Source of the DNA: Pseudoalteromonas rubra
Lineage (GTDB): Bacteria > Pseudomonadota > Gammaproteobacteria > Enterobacterales > Alteromonadaceae
Assembly (NCBI RefSeq): GCF_001482385.1
Contig: NZ_CP013611.1
Span: 3,293,501 to 3,357,500 of the forward strand
Reading direction: 5' to 3'
Length of the DNA: 64,000 bases
The notes beneath the pieces are model-generated. The model saw nothing but the letters and a program-made list of their open reading frames with translations, made no database searches and was not told the origin of the DNA. This document shows positions 31,838 through 42,619 of this stretch, piece after piece. Within the stretch, counting starts at the first letter, position 1; each line of letters begins with the position of its first letter. A program made the translations under genes and the position numbers.

Positions 31838-32851
31838 TTACCCCAGCGTTACTTTTTTTAATGCCACACCGGAACGGCTCAGGGCTGATTCAACCAGCCG
31901 AATAGTCAGCGGATCGCGGCTGCTGCCATGTTGCATCCAGACTAATGACTGAGCAGTGCGCGCTGTGACCTGTGTATTATTGTGCAGCGCACTGAGGTAA
32001 TGACGCGCGAACACCGCCTGGCTGGTCATATCATTAGAGATATTCAGGATCCCCGGATGGACACATTTTTCCTCGCACTGCGCAGTATCTGTGGTTGCGA
32101 CAAATCGCGTTGCGTTGTTTGCCACTAACCTGACTTTGGCAAACACCGCACGGTTGAGCACGGAGATTTTGGTGACATCATCCAGTTGCCCGGCATACTG
32201 AGCCAGCCCATCAGCAGCCAACAGGGTTTGTGCAATGGCATGCTCAGGTATGACAGGCTGACCATGTTGATCGGTCAGCTGACCCAGATACACAATATGA
32301 TCTGCACGCTTAGCACTGCTCAAAACGTGTAAACCCGGCAACCCCTGGGGGAGCGTCAATGTCTCCCAGTGTGTATTACCCAGGGTATTAACAAAATGCT
32401 CTGGTTTAAATGCCTTGCCCAGCGCCTTGCTTGCCGAGACCACCAGTGACGAGGTCGGTTGGAGGTCGTGTTTACTGCGATAAGCAATGGTGATTTGCTG
32501 CGCTTTCACCCCTTGTGCCAGCAGATGCATCAGGCTTGCATGCAGGAGTTTACTGTCAACACTATAAGGAAATGGTTTATCCGACACGACGCCCAGGACT
32601 ATCAAAACTTGATGCCCTGTCCGGATCGGCAAATCCAGCGTGTCTGCCAGTGCTATGTATTGATCCTGCATGTGCGCTTGTTCTTGCAAGCCTGCATTTT
32701 TCAGTGTGGCTGTGGCGACGACGCCCTGATGCACATCAATGGTGTTTTGCCAGGCAAAAGTAGAAGTGCTGGTTGCCAGCGCGCCCAGTCCCAGCCCGGT
32801 TCCTTTTAAAAAGGAACGCCTGGACACAGTGGTGTGTTGCTGATTTTTCAT
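31838..32851 (-). CDS. Tat-exported protein, DUF362-like
   Basis: 337 aa. A twin-arginine signal SRRSFLKGTGLGLGALA is at residues 10-26. The mature part starts with a segment (VLIVLGVVSDKPFPYSVDSKLL ... LLAQGVKAQQITIAY) that resembles the opening of DUF362 proteins. CEEKC lies in the second half; no full ferredoxin motif is present. Tat export implies folding or cofactor loading in the cytoplasm. Last gene of the amino-acid-oxidase operon, 3 bases after the other Tat gene, so the pair is probably co-translated. Function unknown. Confidence 0.6.
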   Translation of the reverse strand: MKNQQHTTVSRRSFLKGTGLGLGALATSTSTFAWQNTIDVHQGVVATATLKNAGLQEQAHMQDQYIALADTLDLPIRTGHQVLIVLGVVSDKPFPYSVDSKLLHASLMHLLAQGVKAQQITIAYRSKHDLQPTSSLVVSASKALGKAFKPEHFVNTLGNTHWETLTLPQGLPGLHVLSSAKRADHIVYLGQLTDQHGQPVIPEHAIAQTLLAADGLAQYAGQLDDVTKISVLNRAVFAKVRLVANNATRFVATTDTAQCEEKCVHPGILNISNDMTSQAVFARHYLSALHNNTQVTARTAQSLVWMQHGSSRDPLTIRLVESALSRSGVALKKVTLG

Positions 32852-32854
32852 AGA

Positions 32855-33787
32855 TTAAGAAACCTTTTGATAGAGAGCCAGGTATTCAGGAAGCGCCTGG
32901 TGTGAGTTCAGCGTGTGCATATCGACCAGTTTGAACCCATATTGCGCCATTTCCCGGTGCCATGTTGTTGCGGAGCGTAGTCGTGTGCGTTGTGCTGCTG
33001 CTTGCTGCCAGGATTGCCCTTCAAACAGATTGGTCCAGTCATTCAGCACTGCCGCAAAGTGTTGTTGCACTGGCTTTTGTACGTCATAAAGGCGCATGGC
33101 AAGGTGGCCGCCGGAGGTCATTTGTCGACTCAGCCCTGACATCATTCCGGTAAACACCTCTTGGCTGTAACAGTGTGGGCCGTCATAAATGGCAGCCAGT
33201 TGCAAATGAGCGTCTTTGTTCAGCGCCAGCGCGTGCTGATCTACTTCAGTGGTTGTGGCAATACTGATCACATCGGAGCGCGCGATGGGGCTGTAACTTG
33301 CCGGCATAGGCCGGGTAACAGTCAATTTGCGACCACTTACCTGTGGCAACAGAGCAATGGGATCAAAGCTGCTGTTGGGCAAGCCAAAACTGATGTAACC
33401 GTCTACCGGGACTGCAGTGATGAGATCCTGTAATGACTCAATACACTGGATTTGACGATCCTGATAGCGATGCATGTTGATCAGATTCAGGTTCATTGAG
33501 TCCTGCGCCACCAGTTCGTGAAGGCGCGTGTAGATGGCGTGCTCACTCTCTAGTTGCGCGATACATTGGATCGCCTGTGTATGGATCTCTGCATCCTGAT
33601 AAAGGTGTAATTGCTGAGCCAGAATAGGCAGCAATTCAGTCAGTCGGTTTTTGTCCAGGTAGAGTGCATGATAGCTATTCTCCTGATTTAACAAGGCCCT
33701 GACTAACGGAGAGGCTGCCACCTGACAACCAGTCAGTCCTGCAAGTGCGAAACTGCTTTTTAAAAACGTACGCCGCGACAATGTCAT
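32855..33787 (-). CDS. Tat-signal lipoprotein of unknown function
   Basis: 310 aa. LSRRTFLKSSFALAGLTGC has both a twin-arginine motif (Arg5-Arg6) and a lipobox LTGC with Cys21, so it is predicted to be a Tat-exported lipoprotein. No catalytic domain was recognised; the body is helical with DLITAVPVDGYISFGLP and HCYSQEVFTGMMSGLSRQM as notable stretches. It is translated just ahead of the DUF362-like gene and 70 bases behind the decarboxylase gene, with a hairpin in that gap. Perhaps an exported partner of the DUF362-like protein. Confidence 0.6.
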   Translation of the reverse strand: MTLSRRTFLKSSFALAGLTGCQVAASPLVRALLNQENSYHALYLDKNRLTELLPILAQQLHLYQDAEIHTQAIQCIAQLESEHAIYTRLHELVAQDSMNLNLINMHRYQDRQIQCIESLQDLITAVPVDGYISFGLPNSSFDPIALLPQVSGRKLTVTRPMPASYSPIARSDVISIATTTEVDQHALALNKDAHLQLAAIYDGPHCYSQEVFTGMMSGLSRQMTSGGHLAMRLYDVQKPVQQHFAAVLNDWTNLFEGQSWQQAAAQRTRLRSATTWHREMAQYGFKLVDMHTLNSHQALPEYLALYQKVS

Positions 33788-33805
33788 CCTTATACCCTTG
33801 TGCTG

Positions 33806-33825
33806 AAGAGGCGCAAACGCCTCTT
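33806..33825 (-). other. Intercistronic hairpin before the Tat gene pair
   Basis: AAGAGGCG (33806-33813) / CGCCTCTT (33818-33825), a perfect 8-bp stem with a 4-base loop in the gap between the decarboxylase and the first Tat gene. There is no T-tract on the transcribed side, so it may set mRNA stability of the two halves of the operon. Confidence 0.45.
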
Positions 33826-33857
33826 GAAACGATTAAAAGAATTAATATCTGATTGAC

Positions 33858-35552
33858 TTAAATACCCAAGAAAGCGCGGTTCTCAGCCGGCAGATCTTTC
33901 ATTGGGATCTGTGCTGCAATGACACAGGGTTGATCCGGACGAGCATGTGCGTGACGCAGCGCGCCCAGCAGATCATCATAACTGGTGACTCTGAGGCCGA
34001 TCCCGCCATTGTAGACATGGGGCATGTTTTCGTACTTCCAGCCGTTGAGCATCACGTAGTCCAGTGGTGCTTTGTTCGGTTCAGTAAAGAAAGTACCGTC
34101 GATCAGGAACTGTTCAATGGCATATGAACCGTTGTCGATGATCACTATGATGCCAGGTATCTGATTCTGGACGAATGACGAGAAGGCTTGCGACACCATT
34201 TGGAAACCGCCATCACCTGTCACTATCAGTGGCCGTTTGCCAGTTGCAAAGTAAGCGCCGATTGCGGCAGGTGTGCCCTGACCGATTGACAGCCAAATGG
34301 GGTTTGCCAGGAAGCATTGGGTATCCAGTACCGGAATATCTGCTCCCGGGAAACTGGCCAGACAGGTATCCAGGCTGATGTAATAAGGGTCGGGCTGCTC
34401 CGTTAGGAAGTCACCAATCGCAGCAAAAATGCCGTCGTGACCGAGCGTGCCGTTATACGGGTCATCACCTAGTTTGGATTGCCAATGCGCACGGCGATCC
34501 TGATACGTTTGTCCCGCTACGGTAGGGATTTGGCGATCTGTGCGGGTCAACTCAGGTAATTGATTCAGTGACTCTAAAGAGGCGCCCAGTGACAGTTTAG
34601 GCAGCACCTCGGTCCCTATCATGGCTTTATTGAATGCGACACGAAGCAGTTTGTCGCCCAAAGAGGTGACCATGTAGCGATGGTCGATACCGAATAAACA
34701 CCCAAGCGCAATGACGCAATCTGACGATTCAACGCCCTGAGTCACAGTGGACGGTGCCAGATCGCTATCATAAACGCCGCAGAACAGCGGGTGAGATTCA
34801 CTGACCAGCGACTTGGACAGCAAGGTGGTATAAAACGGCAAGTTTTGGGCTTCAACAAAACGCATGGCTTCATCGATCAGACCGAAGCGCACCAGCTCAG
34901 CCCCTAACAGGACGACCGGGTTACTTGCCTGCGCAAGTTTGTCGGCGACGGCTTGTGTGAATGGCCGTGCTCCTCGCTTAAAGCGCTTCGGACTGTAAGC
35001 CAGATTAGGAGAAAAATGACCAATCGGTTGTTTCCAGAGATCCTGTGGGATCTCAATATAAACCGGGCCTGAGCGTTCAATGGCCATGATCAACAAACGA
35101 TCGATGCGGTCTGCTGCGCCTTCCAGAGTGCGGATTTCCGCTGCACCCAGAGTCAGCTTGCGAAACACTTTCAGGTCGGTTTTGCCAAATCCGGTTGAGT
35201 GGGAGAAGAGGACGTCATATTCAGCTTCCAGGCGTAAATCCTTGTCTGTCGGACCGCCATTGATCACGGCCAGTGGTACGCGTTCAGTGAGGGCACTGGC
35301 AATACCGTTTGCCATACTGAGCGTACCAACACCATACGCGACCGATACCGCACCGATTGCCCCTTGTCTGCCGTAACCATCAGCAGCATAGCCGGCTTCC
35401 AGCTCGTTGACTGTATTCACAAACTGCATATCCGGGTCGGCTACCAGACTATCAATGAAATCTGAGCATGAGGTGCCGGGCACCCCAAATACGTGATAAC
35501 AACCAAGTTGCTTTAGTCTGAGTGTAATAAACTCAGCAACAGTATAAGACAT
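33858..35552 (-). CDS. Thiamine-diphosphate-dependent 2-oxo-acid decarboxylase-like enzyme
   Basis: 564 aa, the size of pyruvate/indolepyruvate decarboxylases. N-terminal VFGVPGT and NELEAGYAADGYGR carry the ThDP-activating Glu50. The C-terminal ThDP/Mg motif is GDGGFQMVSQAFSS (Asp447) ending in IDNGSYAIEQ. The His-His pair of pyruvate decarboxylases reads FSHST (Ser117-His118), so one His is lost. It should decarboxylate or ligate a 2-oxo acid; the gene just upstream could produce that acid from an amino acid. No signal peptide. A phenylpyruvate/indolepyruvate decarboxylase, an acyloin synthase or an acetolactate-synthase relative are all possible. Confidence 0.8.
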   Translation of the reverse strand: MSYTVAEFITLRLKQLGCYHVFGVPGTSCSDFIDSLVADPDMQFVNTVNELEAGYAADGYGRQGAIGAVSVAYGVGTLSMANGIASALTERVPLAVINGGPTDKDLRLEAEYDVLFSHSTGFGKTDLKVFRKLTLGAAEIRTLEGAADRIDRLLIMAIERSGPVYIEIPQDLWKQPIGHFSPNLAYSPKRFKRGARPFTQAVADKLAQASNPVVLLGAELVRFGLIDEAMRFVEAQNLPFYTTLLSKSLVSESHPLFCGVYDSDLAPSTVTQGVESSDCVIALGCLFGIDHRYMVTSLGDKLLRVAFNKAMIGTEVLPKLSLGASLESLNQLPELTRTDRQIPTVAGQTYQDRRAHWQSKLGDDPYNGTLGHDGIFAAIGDFLTEQPDPYYISLDTCLASFPGADIPVLDTQCFLANPIWLSIGQGTPAAIGAYFATGKRPLIVTGDGGFQMVSQAFSSFVQNQIPGIIVIIDNGSYAIEQFLIDGTFFTEPNKAPLDYVMLNGWKYENMPHVYNGGIGLRVTSYDDLLGALRHAHARPDQPCVIAAQIPMKDLPAENRAFLGI

Positions 35553-35570
35553 GTTTTTTCCTTAAAATAG

Positions 35571-37064
35571 TTATGCTTTTTGACTTATGTACTGGACGGC
35601 TTCCAGCGCCGATACCAGGGCACCCTGGATCCATGAGTGGTAAAGGGAGCAATGTTCTCCGGCGAAACATAAGCGCTGTTCAGGCTCGCTCATCAGTGCG
35701 TAATAATCCTGATGGTCTCTGGGGTTAAAAAAGGCGTAAGCGCCTGCTGAATGGGTGTGATTCGTCCAGCTCCAGCGCAGCACACTCAAAATATCGTCGC
35801 GTTCGATATAGGGATGCACTTTCTTCAGCTCAGTGTAAATAAATTCTTTAAGCTCGAAGTTATTCAGTGTATCGACCCGGCGCGCATGCTGGCCCCAGGT
35901 GTAAGATGCCAGCAAATAACTGGGAGAGCGCGATACCTGCGGATCTTTGCGTTGCGCGTTGTCTGCCGGGAACCAGGTATGACCCAGGCCCACATCGTAG
36001 ATGGTGCTGCCGCCATAAATGCCTTCGTTGAGTTCCCAGAAACGGTTTTTCGTTCGGATCAGCACTTTGGTCGCCGAATCATAATTGACCTGTGCAAATG
36101 CTCGGGACTTGAGCGGGTTGATGGACTGCTTAAAGTCTACCTTGCCGAGTACACCAAAGGGCAATGTACAAATTACAAAGTCTGAACGCAGTGTGTGTTT
36201 AGAGCGATCTCTGAGCTGGTAAGTGACAGCAACGCCACTGGCCTGGTTGTCTATGGCGATTACCCGCGCGCCCGCTTTAAACTGCACGCCATGCTGGATT
36301 TTTTCGAACAGTTTGCGAGGCAGTAAATCGGTGCCCCCAACGACTTCGTCGAAACCATCAAACCAGACGCGCTCCAGCTCTTCTCTGAGATGCTCGGAAA
36401 AGGACGTTTGCATCAGTGTGGATACGCCATAAATGGCACTGACGTATTCCAGTGCATCGAGGCTTAACCCGGCCGCAACGAACGCGTCTTTTAACGACAT
36501 GTCATCCAGTGCTTTGAGCTTCTCACTGTCTAATGTTCTGTTATAAAGCGCTTTTTTTTCATCGCTGCTGAGTGAATTGAGGACCTCAGTGACCGCAATT
36601 TCCCACATGTTATCGGCGGACATTTTTTGCTCTGCCGGTCTGAGGGAAAAATGCTGTTTTAACTGTTCGAACCCGGCTTCACTACGGGGGACTTTCTGAC
36701 CTCGGATCATGGCAAAGGTCTTGTCATTTTCCTGAACAAAATGACGCATTTCCAGTCCCATTTCGCGGATGTAATGACGCGTCAGGTGGTGCTCTGTCGG
36801 GATCCGCATTGCCCCCAGCTCCGCGTATAATTTGTCAGACTCTCGCAGTGTTCTGACACGTCCGCCAATGTGACTGGGGTCTGCTTCCAAAAGGGTCACT
36901 TTTGCCCCCAGTCTGAGCAGCTCATAGGCCGCACTGAGGCCTGCGACACCGGCACCAACGATAGTCACAGTCGGTTGCGAGGCAAGGCTGTTGTCTTGCA
37001 ATGCCCGCACGCTATTGAGCACAATCATTGGATCGGGAATACTGTTTGAAATACCTTTTTGCAT
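35571..37064 (-). CDS. Flavin amine oxidase family, L-amino-acid oxidase-like
   Basis: 497 aa from the ATG at 37064 (AAGGA ten bases upstream); a TTG at 37073 lies too close to that site. The FAD dinucleotide fold is VTIVGAGVAGLSAAYELL at residue 33 on, followed by LLEADPSHIGGRVRT and ELGAMRIP. The C-terminal FAD segment is LCFAGEHCSLYHSWIQGALVSALEA. This matches bacterial L-amino-acid oxidases, which yield a 2-oxo acid, ammonia and hydrogen peroxide, or the tryptophan monooxygenase branch. No signal peptide is seen. The decarboxylase gene follows after 18 bases. Substrate not readable from sequence. Confidence 0.85.
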   Translation of the reverse strand: MQKGISNSIPDPMIVLNSVRALQDNSLASQPTVTIVGAGVAGLSAAYELLRLGAKVTLLEADPSHIGGRVRTLRESDKLYAELGAMRIPTEHHLTRHYIREMGLEMRHFVQENDKTFAMIRGQKVPRSEAGFEQLKQHFSLRPAEQKMSADNMWEIAVTEVLNSLSSDEKKALYNRTLDSEKLKALDDMSLKDAFVAAGLSLDALEYVSAIYGVSTLMQTSFSEHLREELERVWFDGFDEVVGGTDLLPRKLFEKIQHGVQFKAGARVIAIDNQASGVAVTYQLRDRSKHTLRSDFVICTLPFGVLGKVDFKQSINPLKSRAFAQVNYDSATKVLIRTKNRFWELNEGIYGGSTIYDVGLGHTWFPADNAQRKDPQVSRSPSYLLASYTWGQHARRVDTLNNFELKEFIYTELKKVHPYIERDDILSVLRWSWTNHTHSAGAYAFFNPRDHQDYYALMSEPEQRLCFAGEHCSLYHSWIQGALVSALEAVQYISQKA

Positions 37065-37088
37065 ACTTTTCAATCCTTGTTTGCGTGT

Positions 37089-37919
37089 TTAAAGTTGCAA
37101 GGCCTGAGTGATGACCTCAGCCAGTTCAAGTGGTTTGGTGAGCATCGGCAAATGGCCGGAATCCAGGCTATAGGTTTGAGTAATACCGATGGATTCAGCA
37201 ATTTTCTTTTGCGAGGACAGGGAAATAATTTTGTCCTGAGTGGCAAAAACATAGGCTTTGTTAATGGGTGCCAAAGTGGTTTTGCTCAGCATCACTTTGC
37301 CATCTCCGGTGATGGCTGGCTCATCGACTGAATTGTCCAGTACAAACTGTTGCTGGGTTTTGCTGTGCGCTTCAGTGAACGAAGATAAATAGGCAGACTT
37401 GTCGGAAATCTTCATCCAGCCATCTTCATACGTGATACCGGAAAAATAATGCTCTTCGTCCTGTTTACTTAGTAAGGCAAAAGGCTTTGCGCCTTCTATC
37501 GGTGCAACGGCGCTGACGTAGATGATGTCGCTAATGTTGACATCACTGCATAGCGTGATGGCTTTGTGGACAATAGCACCGCCCTGGCTATGTGCGACCA
37601 GTGCCTGTGGTTGGGGATACGATCGTAAATGTGTACATAAACTTTGAGCTGCGTGATCCAAGGTGATGGATTTAGGATCTATGGTGGTTTTGCGCCCAGG
37701 TAAGTCAACGACGTAGTTTCTGATCCCCTGTTTTGTCAGTTGAGATTGTACTGTCGACCAGGCTGTTCCTTTAGAATGCGCACCATGAATAAATATGACT
37801 GATTTTTTTAGAGCGTCTGTCTCTTGAGCAAGAGATTGCACTGGTGCTTGTTGAGAAATGCTATTACAGCCACTCAAAATAACAGCACAGCACAGCGGCA
37901 ACCAAACCTTTGAGTTCAT
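37089..37919 (-). CDS. Alpha/beta hydrolase lipoprotein
   Basis: 276 aa. Signal peptide and lipobox are LSGC (Cys18), so it is probably anchored to a membrane facing the periplasm. Fold motifs are the oxyanion start FIHGAHSKGTAW, the nucleophile LVAHSQGG (Ser111) and a late SGHLPML with the catalytic His. The wording resembles the methylesterase/hydroxynitrile-lyase-type alpha/beta hydrolases. First gene of the operon; the oxidase gene begins 24 bases downstream. The substrate is unknown; an ester, lactone or cyanohydrin of the pathway product is speculation. Confidence 0.8.
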   Translation of the reverse strand: MNSKVWLPLCCAVILSGCNSISQQAPVQSLAQETDALKKSVIFIHGAHSKGTAWSTVQSQLTKQGIRNYVVDLPGRKTTIDPKSITLDHAAQSLCTHLRSYPQPQALVAHSQGGAIVHKAITLCSDVNISDIIYVSAVAPIEGAKPFALLSKQDEEHYFSGITYEDGWMKISDKSAYLSSFTEAHSKTQQQFVLDNSVDEPAITGDGKVMLSKTTLAPINKAYVFATQDKIISLSSQKKIAESIGITQTYSLDSGHLPMLTKPLELAEVITQALQL

Positions 37920-40421: not shown

Positions 40422-40535
40422 TCACGTAAGTTCCACCTTTCTTGTGTTTGGCATGTTAAAGATCAATAAATATTTTTAGCATGCTAGACGTCCGTTGCTT
40501 TTTATTCCCAAATCTCCGACAATAGCGCCAATTTT

Positions 40536-40697
40536 TCAGGGTGTCAGATCAGGAGCCTGGAGTCTCTTAAAGATCTGAATAATCGGGAAGCTGGTGCATG
40601 CCATAGGAACAGGCATTAGTCCGGCACTGCCCCCGCAACGGTGAGCTTATCGCAACCAAGAGGTTGTGGTAGGTAAGTCCGGAAACCGGCCCTGAAG
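40536..40697 (+). ncRNA. Cobalamin riboswitch
   Basis: The core words GGGAAGCTGGTGCATGCC, CGGCACTGCCCCCGCAACGGTGAG and AAGTCCGGAAACCGGCC appear in the order of the AdoCbl riboswitch (Cobalamin class). A closing stem TCAGGG (40536-40541) / CCCTGA (40690-40695) can form. It lies 50 bases ahead of btuB; CACGC/GCGTG (40719-40733) next to the ribosome site is a possible expression platform. Cobalamin binding should turn btuB off. Confidence 0.93.
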
Positions 40698-40747
40698 CAC
40701 ACTCATATAGTTGTAGTTCACGCGGTGGGCGTGGATCAGGGGAACCC

Positions 40748-42619
40748 ATGTTTAAAAAATCTACTTTAACCACGGCCATGCTGGCTGTGCTGCCTTTCTC
40801 TGTGTTGTCAGCGCAAGACATTGAACATATCACGATTACAGCGAACAAATTTGAACAAGCCAGTGTGGATACGTTGACCTCTGTGGCGGTGGTTGAGCGT
40901 GCTGAAATTGAGCGTGCTAATGTGCGTGATGTGCCCACCTTGCTTAACAATTTAGCAGGCATTGATGTGGTGCGAAGCGGTGGTTATGGCCAGAAGACCA
41001 GTGTCTTTGTACGTGGTGCTGCCACTAAATATACCTTAGTGTTAGTGGATGGCGTGCGGATCAGTGATGCCAACTCGGGCGATGTATCTTTTACGAATAT
41101 TCCGGTAAACAGCATTGAGCGCATTGAAGTACTCAAAGGCGCACGTGCGGCCATTTATGGCTCTGACGCCGTTGCCGGGGTGATTAACATCATTACCCGT
41201 GAACAGAAGGGCCATCAACTGGCACTGACTTCGGGCAGCCGTAACTATGGCGGCGCTCAGTTGGCTGGCCAATTTGAGGCAGATAAGCTGACAGTGAATT
41301 ATCATTTTGGTTATGAGAGCACTGATGGTTATGACGTGACAGCCAAAGATCCCGCAGCACCGCGCTCTAAAGAGCATGACAGTGACGCTTATGACAACAC
41401 CAATATGGGCATTAAACTGGGCTACGACTTGGCGCAATACGGCCAACTTGCGCTCTATGCACAGCGTAGTGAGGGAGAAGCGGATTACGATGCCTCCTTT
41501 GGCAATGATGCGTACAAGTTTGATAATCACACCACTAAGCTGGCGTGGCAGAAGCAATCGGACGTATTGATCCAGGAAGCGTCTATCAGTCTGGCCCAGG
41601 AAGAAAATACACAATTCCTGTCGGTTGTACCAGATGGCACACAACCACCACCCAATGATGTTTACAGCACTAAGCGGGATGAAATTGAATACCGCGCACG
41701 CTACAAAATGACACCAGCTGTTCAGCTGATGGGCGGTGTGAGTCGTCTGAATGAGGACCTGTCTTCATCAAGCGCGCAATTCTCGATTGCAGAGCGCGAT
41801 AATACCGCTGTATTTGCCGCTGCATTTTACGACGACAAGCGCTGGTTGCTGAATGCAGTCGTGCGCAGTGATGACTATGAACATCACGGACGTGCGAATA
41901 CGTATACGGCTGATGTTGGCTTCAGAGCATCCGACATCGTCACCTTTCGGGTAAATCATGGCACTGCATTTCGTGCCCCCAGCTTAACCAATGCGTTTGT
42001 CAAAGACAGCCCCTGGTATTTGCCTAACATCGAAATTAAGCCGGAAGAAGGTACCTACAATGAGTTAGGTGTGACGGTGGAAACGGCCTCGGTACGCTAT
42101 GATGTGGCCATCTTCGATAACCGCATTGATAACCTGATCAGCAACGAATTTGACGCGCAAACAAACAAGTACATTCCTGCTAATGTGGGCCGTGCGCACA
42201 TGAAAGGAATTGAGTTAAGTGCACAATTTTCGGCGCTGGGCCTGGAGCATGCAGCCAATCTGACCTTTCTGAATGCCAGAGACAAAGAAAAGCGCGAAGA
42301 CTTGCCTCGCCGCGCTGGCAAAGCGTTTAACTATGTTCTGTCAAAGCAGTGGGACAAGCTGGATGTGAGACTGGCGATGCAATACCGTGATAAGCGTCCG
42401 TCGATCAGCTACTTTGATACCGATCTGCCGTCTTACACTGTCTTTAATCTTAGCGCCAACTATCAATTGCTTGAACCCGTTGCACTGACAATGAGACTGG
42501 AAAACCTGACTGATAAGGAATACTTTACCTCAGTGGCCAGTAAAACGGCCGACGGTACCTTGTTACCTTATGAACCGCCGGGCAGACAGGTCTATGTAGG
42601 TACTCGGATCACCTTCTAA
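40748..42619 (+). CDS. btuB: TonB-dependent vitamin B12 receptor
   Basis: 623 aa outer-membrane receptor. Signal peptide to about LSAQD, TonB box IEHITITANK, plug with TLLNNLAGIDVVRSGGYGQKTSVFVRGAATKYTLVLVDGVRI and GSDAVAGVINIITRE, then a barrel ending in VGTRITF. The sequence is of BtuB type and the upstream cobalamin riboswitch supports vitamin B12 uptake. Single gene followed by a bidirectional terminator. Confidence 0.95.
   Translation: MFKKSTLTTAMLAVLPFSVLSAQDIEHITITANKFEQASVDTLTSVAVVERAEIERANVRDVPTLLNNLAGIDVVRSGGYGQKTSVFVRGAATKYTLVLVDGVRISDANSGDVSFTNIPVNSIERIEVLKGARAAIYGSDAVAGVINIITREQKGHQLALTSGSRNYGGAQLAGQFEADKLTVNYHFGYESTDGYDVTAKDPAAPRSKEHDSDAYDNTNMGIKLGYDLAQYGQLALYAQRSEGEADYDASFGNDAYKFDNHTTKLAWQKQSDVLIQEASISLAQEENTQFLSVVPDGTQPPPNDVYSTKRDEIEYRARYKMTPAVQLMGGVSRLNEDLSSSSAQFSIAERDNTAVFAAAFYDDKRWLLNAVVRSDDYEHHGRANTYTADVGFRASDIVTFRVNHGTAFRAPSLTNAFVKDSPWYLPNIEIKPEEGTYNELGVTVETASVRYDVAIFDNRIDNLISNEFDAQTNKYIPANVGRAHMKGIELSAQFSALGLEHAANLTFLNARDKEKREDLPRRAGKAFNYVLSKQWDKLDVRLAMQYRDKRPSISYFDTDLPSYTVFNLSANYQLLEPVALTMRLENLTDKEYFTSVASKTADGTLLPYEPPGRQVYVGTRITF

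Follow-up and report, generated by a model that had tools for sequence, protein, structure and literature searches.

A conserved five-gene operon in Pseudoalteromonas joining an L-amino-acid-oxidase-type enzyme and a ThDP-dependent enzyme to a hydrolase lipoprotein and two Tat-exported proteins

Five adjacent genes of Pseudoalteromonas rubra raise the question of whether an oxidase, a ThDP-dependent enzyme, a hydrolase and two exported proteins belong to a single pathway, and what such a pathway could make. They lie on the minus strand between positions 31838 and 37919 of a 64-kb stretch of P. rubra DNA (the whole stretch analysed, hereafter the window). Here, we name them in transcription order as E (hydrolase), D (oxidase), C (ThDP enzyme) and B and A (Tat proteins):

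37089-37919, minus strand: E, alpha/beta-hydrolase lipoprotein of 276 amino acids, first gene of the operon (PF12697 and lipobox)
35571-37064, minus strand: D, FAD L-amino-acid-oxidase-type enzyme of 497 amino acids (PF01593 and solved relatives)
33858-35552, minus strand: C, ThDP-dependent 2-oxo-acid decarboxylase/carboligase-type enzyme of 564 amino acids (three ThDP Pfam domains)
32855-33787, minus strand: B, Tat-exported protein of 310 amino acids with a predicted class I methyltransferase fold without the SAM-binding glycine loop (structure model)
31838-32851, minus strand: A, Tat-exported protein of 337 amino acids with a predicted LarA N-terminal fold without the full set of cofactor-site histidines (structure model)

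The initial annotation had described five same-strand genes with short gaps, and the ORF coordinates agree with it if D starts at the ATG at 37064 (gaps of 24 bases between E and D, 18 between D and C, 70 between C and B and 3 between B and A); an alternative TTG start of D at 37073 is possible. The block measures 6.1 kb and has clean edges. Scans gave no excess of promoters (7 versus a shuffle mean of 8.1) or of terminators (10 versus a shuffle mean of 7.1, s.d. 3.0). Identity in the alignment of the upstream regions was only patchy, and therefore no regulator site is claimed. Elsewhere in the window, a cobalamin riboswitch (RF00174, 72.5 bits) is located at 40527-40708 on the plus strand, directly 5' of a btuB-like TonB receptor gene at 40748.

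Orthologues of each of the five genes were found in the same 10 of 108 Pseudoalteromonas genomes (G000, which is the window genome, G108, G013, G045, G009, G041, G121, G133, G027 and G059). For C, rows at E=0 were taken as orthologues, and the weaker rows, the sole ones in 36 more genomes, are paralogues; for D, the orthologues were ten rows of 74-100% identity, the remaining rows being distant amine oxidases (21-55% identity, mostly short pieces). Because all five orthologues share the same genomes, the arrangement is not due to chance, and the proposal of one operon is upheld. In all seven named loci fetched by C, the order E-D-C-B-A and the strand were kept, and only these five genes were common to all, with no sixth. 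Flanking genes varied among the loci of the P. rubra type, SMS1, P. luteoviolacea, P. phenolica and MSK9-3. In a locus of P. rubra S2471 (97% identity in C), all 13 queried window genes were present, including eight outside the operon. In both P. luteoviolacea loci, a 330-aa ORF lies upstream of the operon (L037:3261-4253 and L038:3801-4793), which we take to resemble a REP-type transposase.

The site occupied in the window proved to be continuous elsewhere. In all seven genomes read that lack the block at this site, thiI and apbA stand side by side; two of the seven (G013 and G009) carry the block at another place. When four of them were compared with the window by blastn, nothing matched between 31786 and 38591. 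Therefore, the block was gained or lost as a whole. Estimates of dN/dS between the window and S2471 were 0.11 for A, 0.08 for B, 0.014 for C, 0.043 for D and 0.060 for E (range 0.014-0.112; rough values, as dS exceeded 1), and all five genes are under purifying selection. As a side observation, the reading frame of thiI in G126 (C2:547539-549016) is broken close to the start, so that the gene spans two frames.

These results also bear on whether the Tat genes form a unit of their own, for instance as exported sensing or chaperone proteins that merely accompany the operon and serve an unrelated purpose. Such a role would be compatible with the loss of the parental cofactor sites in A and B (see below), but both genes share the 10 genomes of C, D and E, and they always stand directly 3' of C, 3-6 bases apart (window and L035-L041). 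We therefore regard an unrelated function of A and B as improbable.

The distribution of the operon is narrow. A search of 5.8 billion proteins at E<=0.01, which finds only relatives with exact five-residue words in common, returned 10 clusters for B and 8 for A, and those with an organism name shown (7 of 10 for B and 6 of 8 for A) were all from Pseudoalteromonas. Weak tblastn matches of A in L013-L017 overlap a metallo-beta-lactamase-like ORF (read for L013) and were judged to be chance. For D, relatives were found in P. fenneropenaei (66% identity), Thalassotalea (47%) and Mucilaginibacter (45-46%), the more distant ones lying outside the genus. In samples of the order (394 genomes, E<=1e-40) and the phylum (398 genomes, E<=1e-70), the D-type oxidase was detected in one genome each, which was G000 itself; about three candidates per genome were scored, and misses are possible. 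Among the titles and abstracts listed by searches of the PMC literature, none describes the five genes together.

We then considered what the first two steps of a pathway could be. D matched PF01593 at 4.6e-65, and its best solved relatives were L-amino acid oxidases (9.2e-62); all 12 solved sequences at E<=1e-50 were named L-amino acid oxidase, ancestor of these, or amine oxidase. Arg87, Tyr388, Lys333 and Trp478 are kept in all 121 rows of an alignment of the window protein with the best 120 of 285 matches, and they probably correspond to the Arg, Tyr, Lys and Trp of the active site. In L-amino acid oxidases, Arg and Tyr bind the substrate carboxylate, Lys positions the catalytic water and Trp sits near the amino group, as described in a passage of PMC9331233. 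Thus, D has both the domain and relatives and the residue set of a snake-type FAD L-amino acid oxidase, and a hydrogen peroxide by-product would follow from this family. No signal peptide was seen by eye, and D is presumably cytosolic.

The substrate pocket offers some indication of specificity. To the side-chain cage, the snake enzyme contributes Arg340, Pl-LAAO contributes Gln359 and L-lysine oxidase contributes Asp315 (passage of PMC9331233). Residue 329 of D, which is Asp in 117 and Glu in 4 of the 121 rows (Asp in all eight operon rows), was placed in the Arg340/Asp315 column because it stands four residues before the catalytic Lys, as Arg340 does before Lys344. Residue 229 (Glu in 114 and Gln in 5 of 121 rows; Glu in two and Gln in six of the eight operon rows) aligns with Gln225, a mutated position of the ancestral enzyme, and we infer that it corresponds to Asp212 of lysine oxidase. 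Together, the two residues favour a basic or polar substrate over an aromatic one. However, pocket residues conserved across so broad a subfamily might instead be structural, and the Gln that most operon rows have at 229 counts against this reading. The L-lysine alpha-oxidase of Trichoderma viride shares with D the acidic residue in this pocket column; however, its sequence is distant (1.4e-19) and the match of the second acidic site is only inferred.

One might suppose that the operon acts mainly through toxic hydrogen peroxide, as Pl-LAAO does, and that the role of C is to remove the oxo acid; antimicrobial activity of a P. luteoviolacea L-amino acid oxidase is described in PMC6316408. However, D appears by eye to be without a signal peptide, and the genome already has a Pl-LAAO-type gene, whose part in L002 matches 7OG2 at 8.2e-263; such a use of the operon is very improbable.

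C contains three ThDP Pfam domains, and its nearest solved relatives are 2-oxo-acid and indolepyruvate decarboxylases. Thus, the family matches of D and C agree with the proposed succession of an L-amino-acid-oxidase-type and a 2-oxo-acid-decarboxylase-type enzyme. Among the best 25 of 52 NCBIfam matches of C, all were far under their cut-offs, including the best, indolepyruvate decarboxylase (207 versus 946 bits) and phenylpyruvate decarboxylase (174 versus 554.5 bits). The cofactor-activating Glu (standard position 51, E50 in C), Glu477 (E480) and the second His are retained. At standard position 28, C has Thr, not Asp, and this Thr27 is invariant in all eight rows. Standard positions 114-115 read SH in the window, L121 and L122 and AH in MSK9-3/L123, such that the HH motif is absent; in C numbering, His118 is invariant in the 8 rows and residue 117 variable. 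Two phmmer alignments disagreed about the lost His, which was settled by an ungapped paralogue clade reading LFHHSTG. Asp28 and Glu477, as well as carboligase side products, have reportedly been the subject of studies. The HH motif is specific to PDC, IPDC and PPDC, and position 28, which is Ala in BAL and Ser in BFD, influences decarboxylase activity (passages of PMC3534367). Because position 28 is Thr and the HH motif is lost, C is, judged by these residues, not a canonical member of the PDC/IPDC/PPDC group, and a carboligase role is plausible. Simple decarboxylation is possible, since Glu51, the second His and Glu477 are kept.

With both enzymes at hand, two further explanations can be weighed. 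The initial annotation favoured an aromatic or indole product (aroma, auxin-like or antimicrobial), in which Trp or Phe would be converted through indolepyruvate or phenylpyruvate to the aldehyde. The best NCBIfam matches of C are to the decarboxylases of just these oxo acids, yet at scores far short of the cut-offs, and C lacks two residues of PDC and indolepyruvate decarboxylase, one of them in the HH motif. In addition, the +4 spacing puts D329 in the column that holds Asp in lysine oxidase and Arg in the aromatic-preferring snake enzyme. The case for an aromatic or auxin-like compound is thus weakened, and we consider such a product improbable. Alternatively, the operon might serve catabolism or nitrogen scavenging: D would deaminate amino acids, C would only decarboxylate the oxo acid to an aldehyde, and A, B and E would be accessory envelope proteins. 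A catabolic role has been suggested for the Pl-laao operon (PMC6316408), and Glu51, one His and Glu477 are kept in C. However, C is without Asp28 and the first His, no aldehyde dehydrogenase- or transporter-like gene is found among the five, the operon is present in only 10 of 108 genomes, and two exported genus-restricted proteins fit poorly. A purely catabolic operon is conceivable but unlikely.

The remaining three proteins would place part of the operon in the cell envelope. E matched PF12697 at 1.9e-14 and 21 solved sequences at E<=0.001, the best being the alpha/beta hydrolase 6TJ2 (9.2e-12) and the others including esterases and hydroxynitrile lyases. Its lipobox Cys and HSQGG, within which the catalytic Ser presumably lies, are present in all eight rows. 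E is therefore an alpha/beta hydrolase lipoprotein as first annotated, and the Pfam and solved-relative assignments of E, D and C all agree with the families originally named. A and B, in line with the claim of two Tat-exported proteins, carry a Tat signal and no other recognisable domain; incidental Pfam matches (E 0.01-0.17) involved at most two members each and were ignored. Tat substrates fold before they are exported, and may do so around a ligand.

The modelled structure of B, which is of modest confidence, has a Rossmann-like class I methyltransferase fold (mean pLDDT 62, 18 related sequences, a low Foldseek TM-score of up to 0.49 by query), with approximately the first 60 residues poorly predicted. 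In class I methyltransferases, the first strand leads into a glycine-rich loop (GxGxG) that binds SAM; in all 18 rows of B, this place is taken by FGLP followed by variable residues. Thus, if the predicted fold is right, B would differ from class I SAM methyltransferases in Tat export, in the missing loop and in six invariant His. B had been called a Tat lipoprotein; it is a Tat protein but not generally a lipoprotein, as the lipobox Cys is present in only 5 of 18 rows.

A is predicted, likewise with modest confidence, to have a LarA-like fold (N-domain; mean pLDDT 64, 14 related sequences, a low Foldseek TM-score of up to 0.43 by query), the first 60 or so residues and the C-terminal quarter being poorly predicted. 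In LarA, His108, His174 and His200 supply the two catalytic histidines and the nickel ligand, and Lys184 and Arg75 serve the cofactor (passage of PMC11770544), and some homologues are without the second catalytic His (passage of PMC12611868). In A, H265 is invariant in 14 of 14 rows and H185 is found in 13 of 14, and therefore the three LarA His cannot be conserved; the cofactor site was judged by this conservation of His over rows. Nickel-pincer cofactor synthesis, judged by the LarC family (PF01969) alone, was not detected in the 10 operon genomes (6 of 14 control genomes have LarC). Tat export, the incomplete histidines and the absence of LarC set A apart from the LarA racemase superfamily. 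The initial annotation had called A DUF362-like. None of the 14 members matched PF04015 at E<=5, a PF04015 search detected the family in one of 99 relatives but not in G000, and a weak hhalign comparison of profiles with two DUF362 proteins gave a probability of 0.3%, which argues against membership. The suggestion was nevertheless close in terms of the predicted fold, as DUF362 and LarA (DUF2088) belong to one Pfam clan (passage of PMC11770544). A viral structure library had no match to A at E<=0.001.

On the basis of these results, the five-gene operon is confirmed and its earlier interpretation partly supported. We tentatively propose a specialised-metabolism operon that is confined to the genus, spreads laterally and is organised around a pair of enzymes found repeatedly in Pseudoalteromonas. 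D would act in the cytosol and oxidise an L-amino acid, with basic or polar ones as likelier candidates than aromatic ones, to a 2-oxo acid, ammonia and hydrogen peroxide. C would decarboxylate this 2-oxo acid through ThDP and, because its active site is changed, would probably pass the bound carbanion to a second carbonyl compound, giving an acyloin or hydroxy-keto product and not only an aldehyde. It should be noted that use of D's product by C does not follow from co-occurrence alone. In the envelope, the product would be handled by the lipoprotein E and by B and A; since both are without the ancestral cofactor site, the latter two would most likely need neither SAM nor a nickel-pincer cofactor to bind or convert this product or a related 2-hydroxy or 2-oxo acid. 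Taken as a whole, this specialised-metabolism reading could quite well be right, although we do not hold it with confidence. The narrower idea that A and B are two new Tat-exported families with racemase and methyltransferase folds, which jointly finish an oxidase-ThDP product outside the cytoplasm without cofactors, is possible but doubtful.

The two-enzyme core itself is widespread in the genus. C-like ThDP genes outside the ten operon genomes are paralogues of approximately 27-36% identity, and we examined the neighbourhoods of 36 of the 61 paralogue rows, hand-chosen to span the groups, together with three C-type loci. In 35 of these 39 loci (32 of 36 without the C-type loci), the ThDP gene is immediately preceded by an oxidase gene of the same orientation, with gaps of -71 to +239 bases. 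The four loci without the oxidase form one clade (L085-L088), and all four have a metallo-beta-lactamase-like gene instead; this lineage is among those closest to C (approximately 33-36% identity). The ThDP tree has four well-separated lineages, distinguished here by standard position 28 and the motif:

C type: Thr, S/A-H
Pl-LAAO type: Asn, S-H
linked to a third FAD oxidase: Asp, HH
linked to the metallo-beta-lactamase-like gene: Asp, HH

L099 forms a long branch beside the Pl-LAAO-type lineage. The Pl-LAAO-type gene of the window genome belongs to a second oxidase-ThDP pair (L002/L105; ThDP gene at C1:1467568-1469253) next to a sensor/regulator-like gene. Overlapping oxidase and ThDP frames (14-71 bases) together with a second FAD-oxidase-like gene were observed in L090-L096, L104 and L118-L120.

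Thus, the operon is real, discrete and conserved, and its interest comes mainly from the two exported proteins, whose predicted folds appear to be repurposed. The oxidase-ThDP pair, which had been described in a single operon of P. luteoviolacea, recurs in several architectures across a genus noted for bioactive compounds, and the present one adds two exported proteins without recognisable domains, which by their predicted folds would be cofactor enzymes stripped of their cofactor sites. If these folds hold, A and B would be, to our knowledge, rare cases of methyltransferase and LarA folds acting outside the cytoplasm.

Among known or related systems, the L018-type clusters of other Pseudoalteromonas species share the two-gene core and have a third gene, which we assume, naming it by eye, to resemble a berberine-bridge-type FAD oxidase. 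They differ from the present operon in the oxidase type (4.1e-167 to 8T8A), in a ThDP enzyme that keeps Asp28 and HH, and in that no Tat proteins were seen. The Pl-laao operon of P. luteoviolacea comprises Pl-LAAO, an indolepyruvate decarboxylase, two Spondin_N-like proteins, a response regulator and a histidine kinase, and was suggested in 2018 to be catabolic (passages of PMC6316408). Like the present operon, it has the oxidase gene directly upstream of the ThDP gene on one strand, in the same genus. However, its oxidase is of another subfamily (7OG2 is not among the best 60 of 114 solved matches of D), its ThDP enzyme belongs to another lineage than C, and the present operon has a hydrolase and two Tat proteins in place of the Spondin_N and two-component genes. 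Because that operon was described in 2018, the core of an oxidase and an indolepyruvate-decarboxylase-like enzyme is already in print, and the present operon is another architecture. Finally, indole-3-pyruvate made by an L-amino acid oxidase has been converted in vitro to acyloins by NzsH, a ThDP enzyme of the neocarazostatin cluster (passage of PMC9822442). This route runs, as proposed for D and C, from amino acid to 2-oxo acid to acyloin, but it is man-made, uses a snake venom oxidase and involves no exported proteins.
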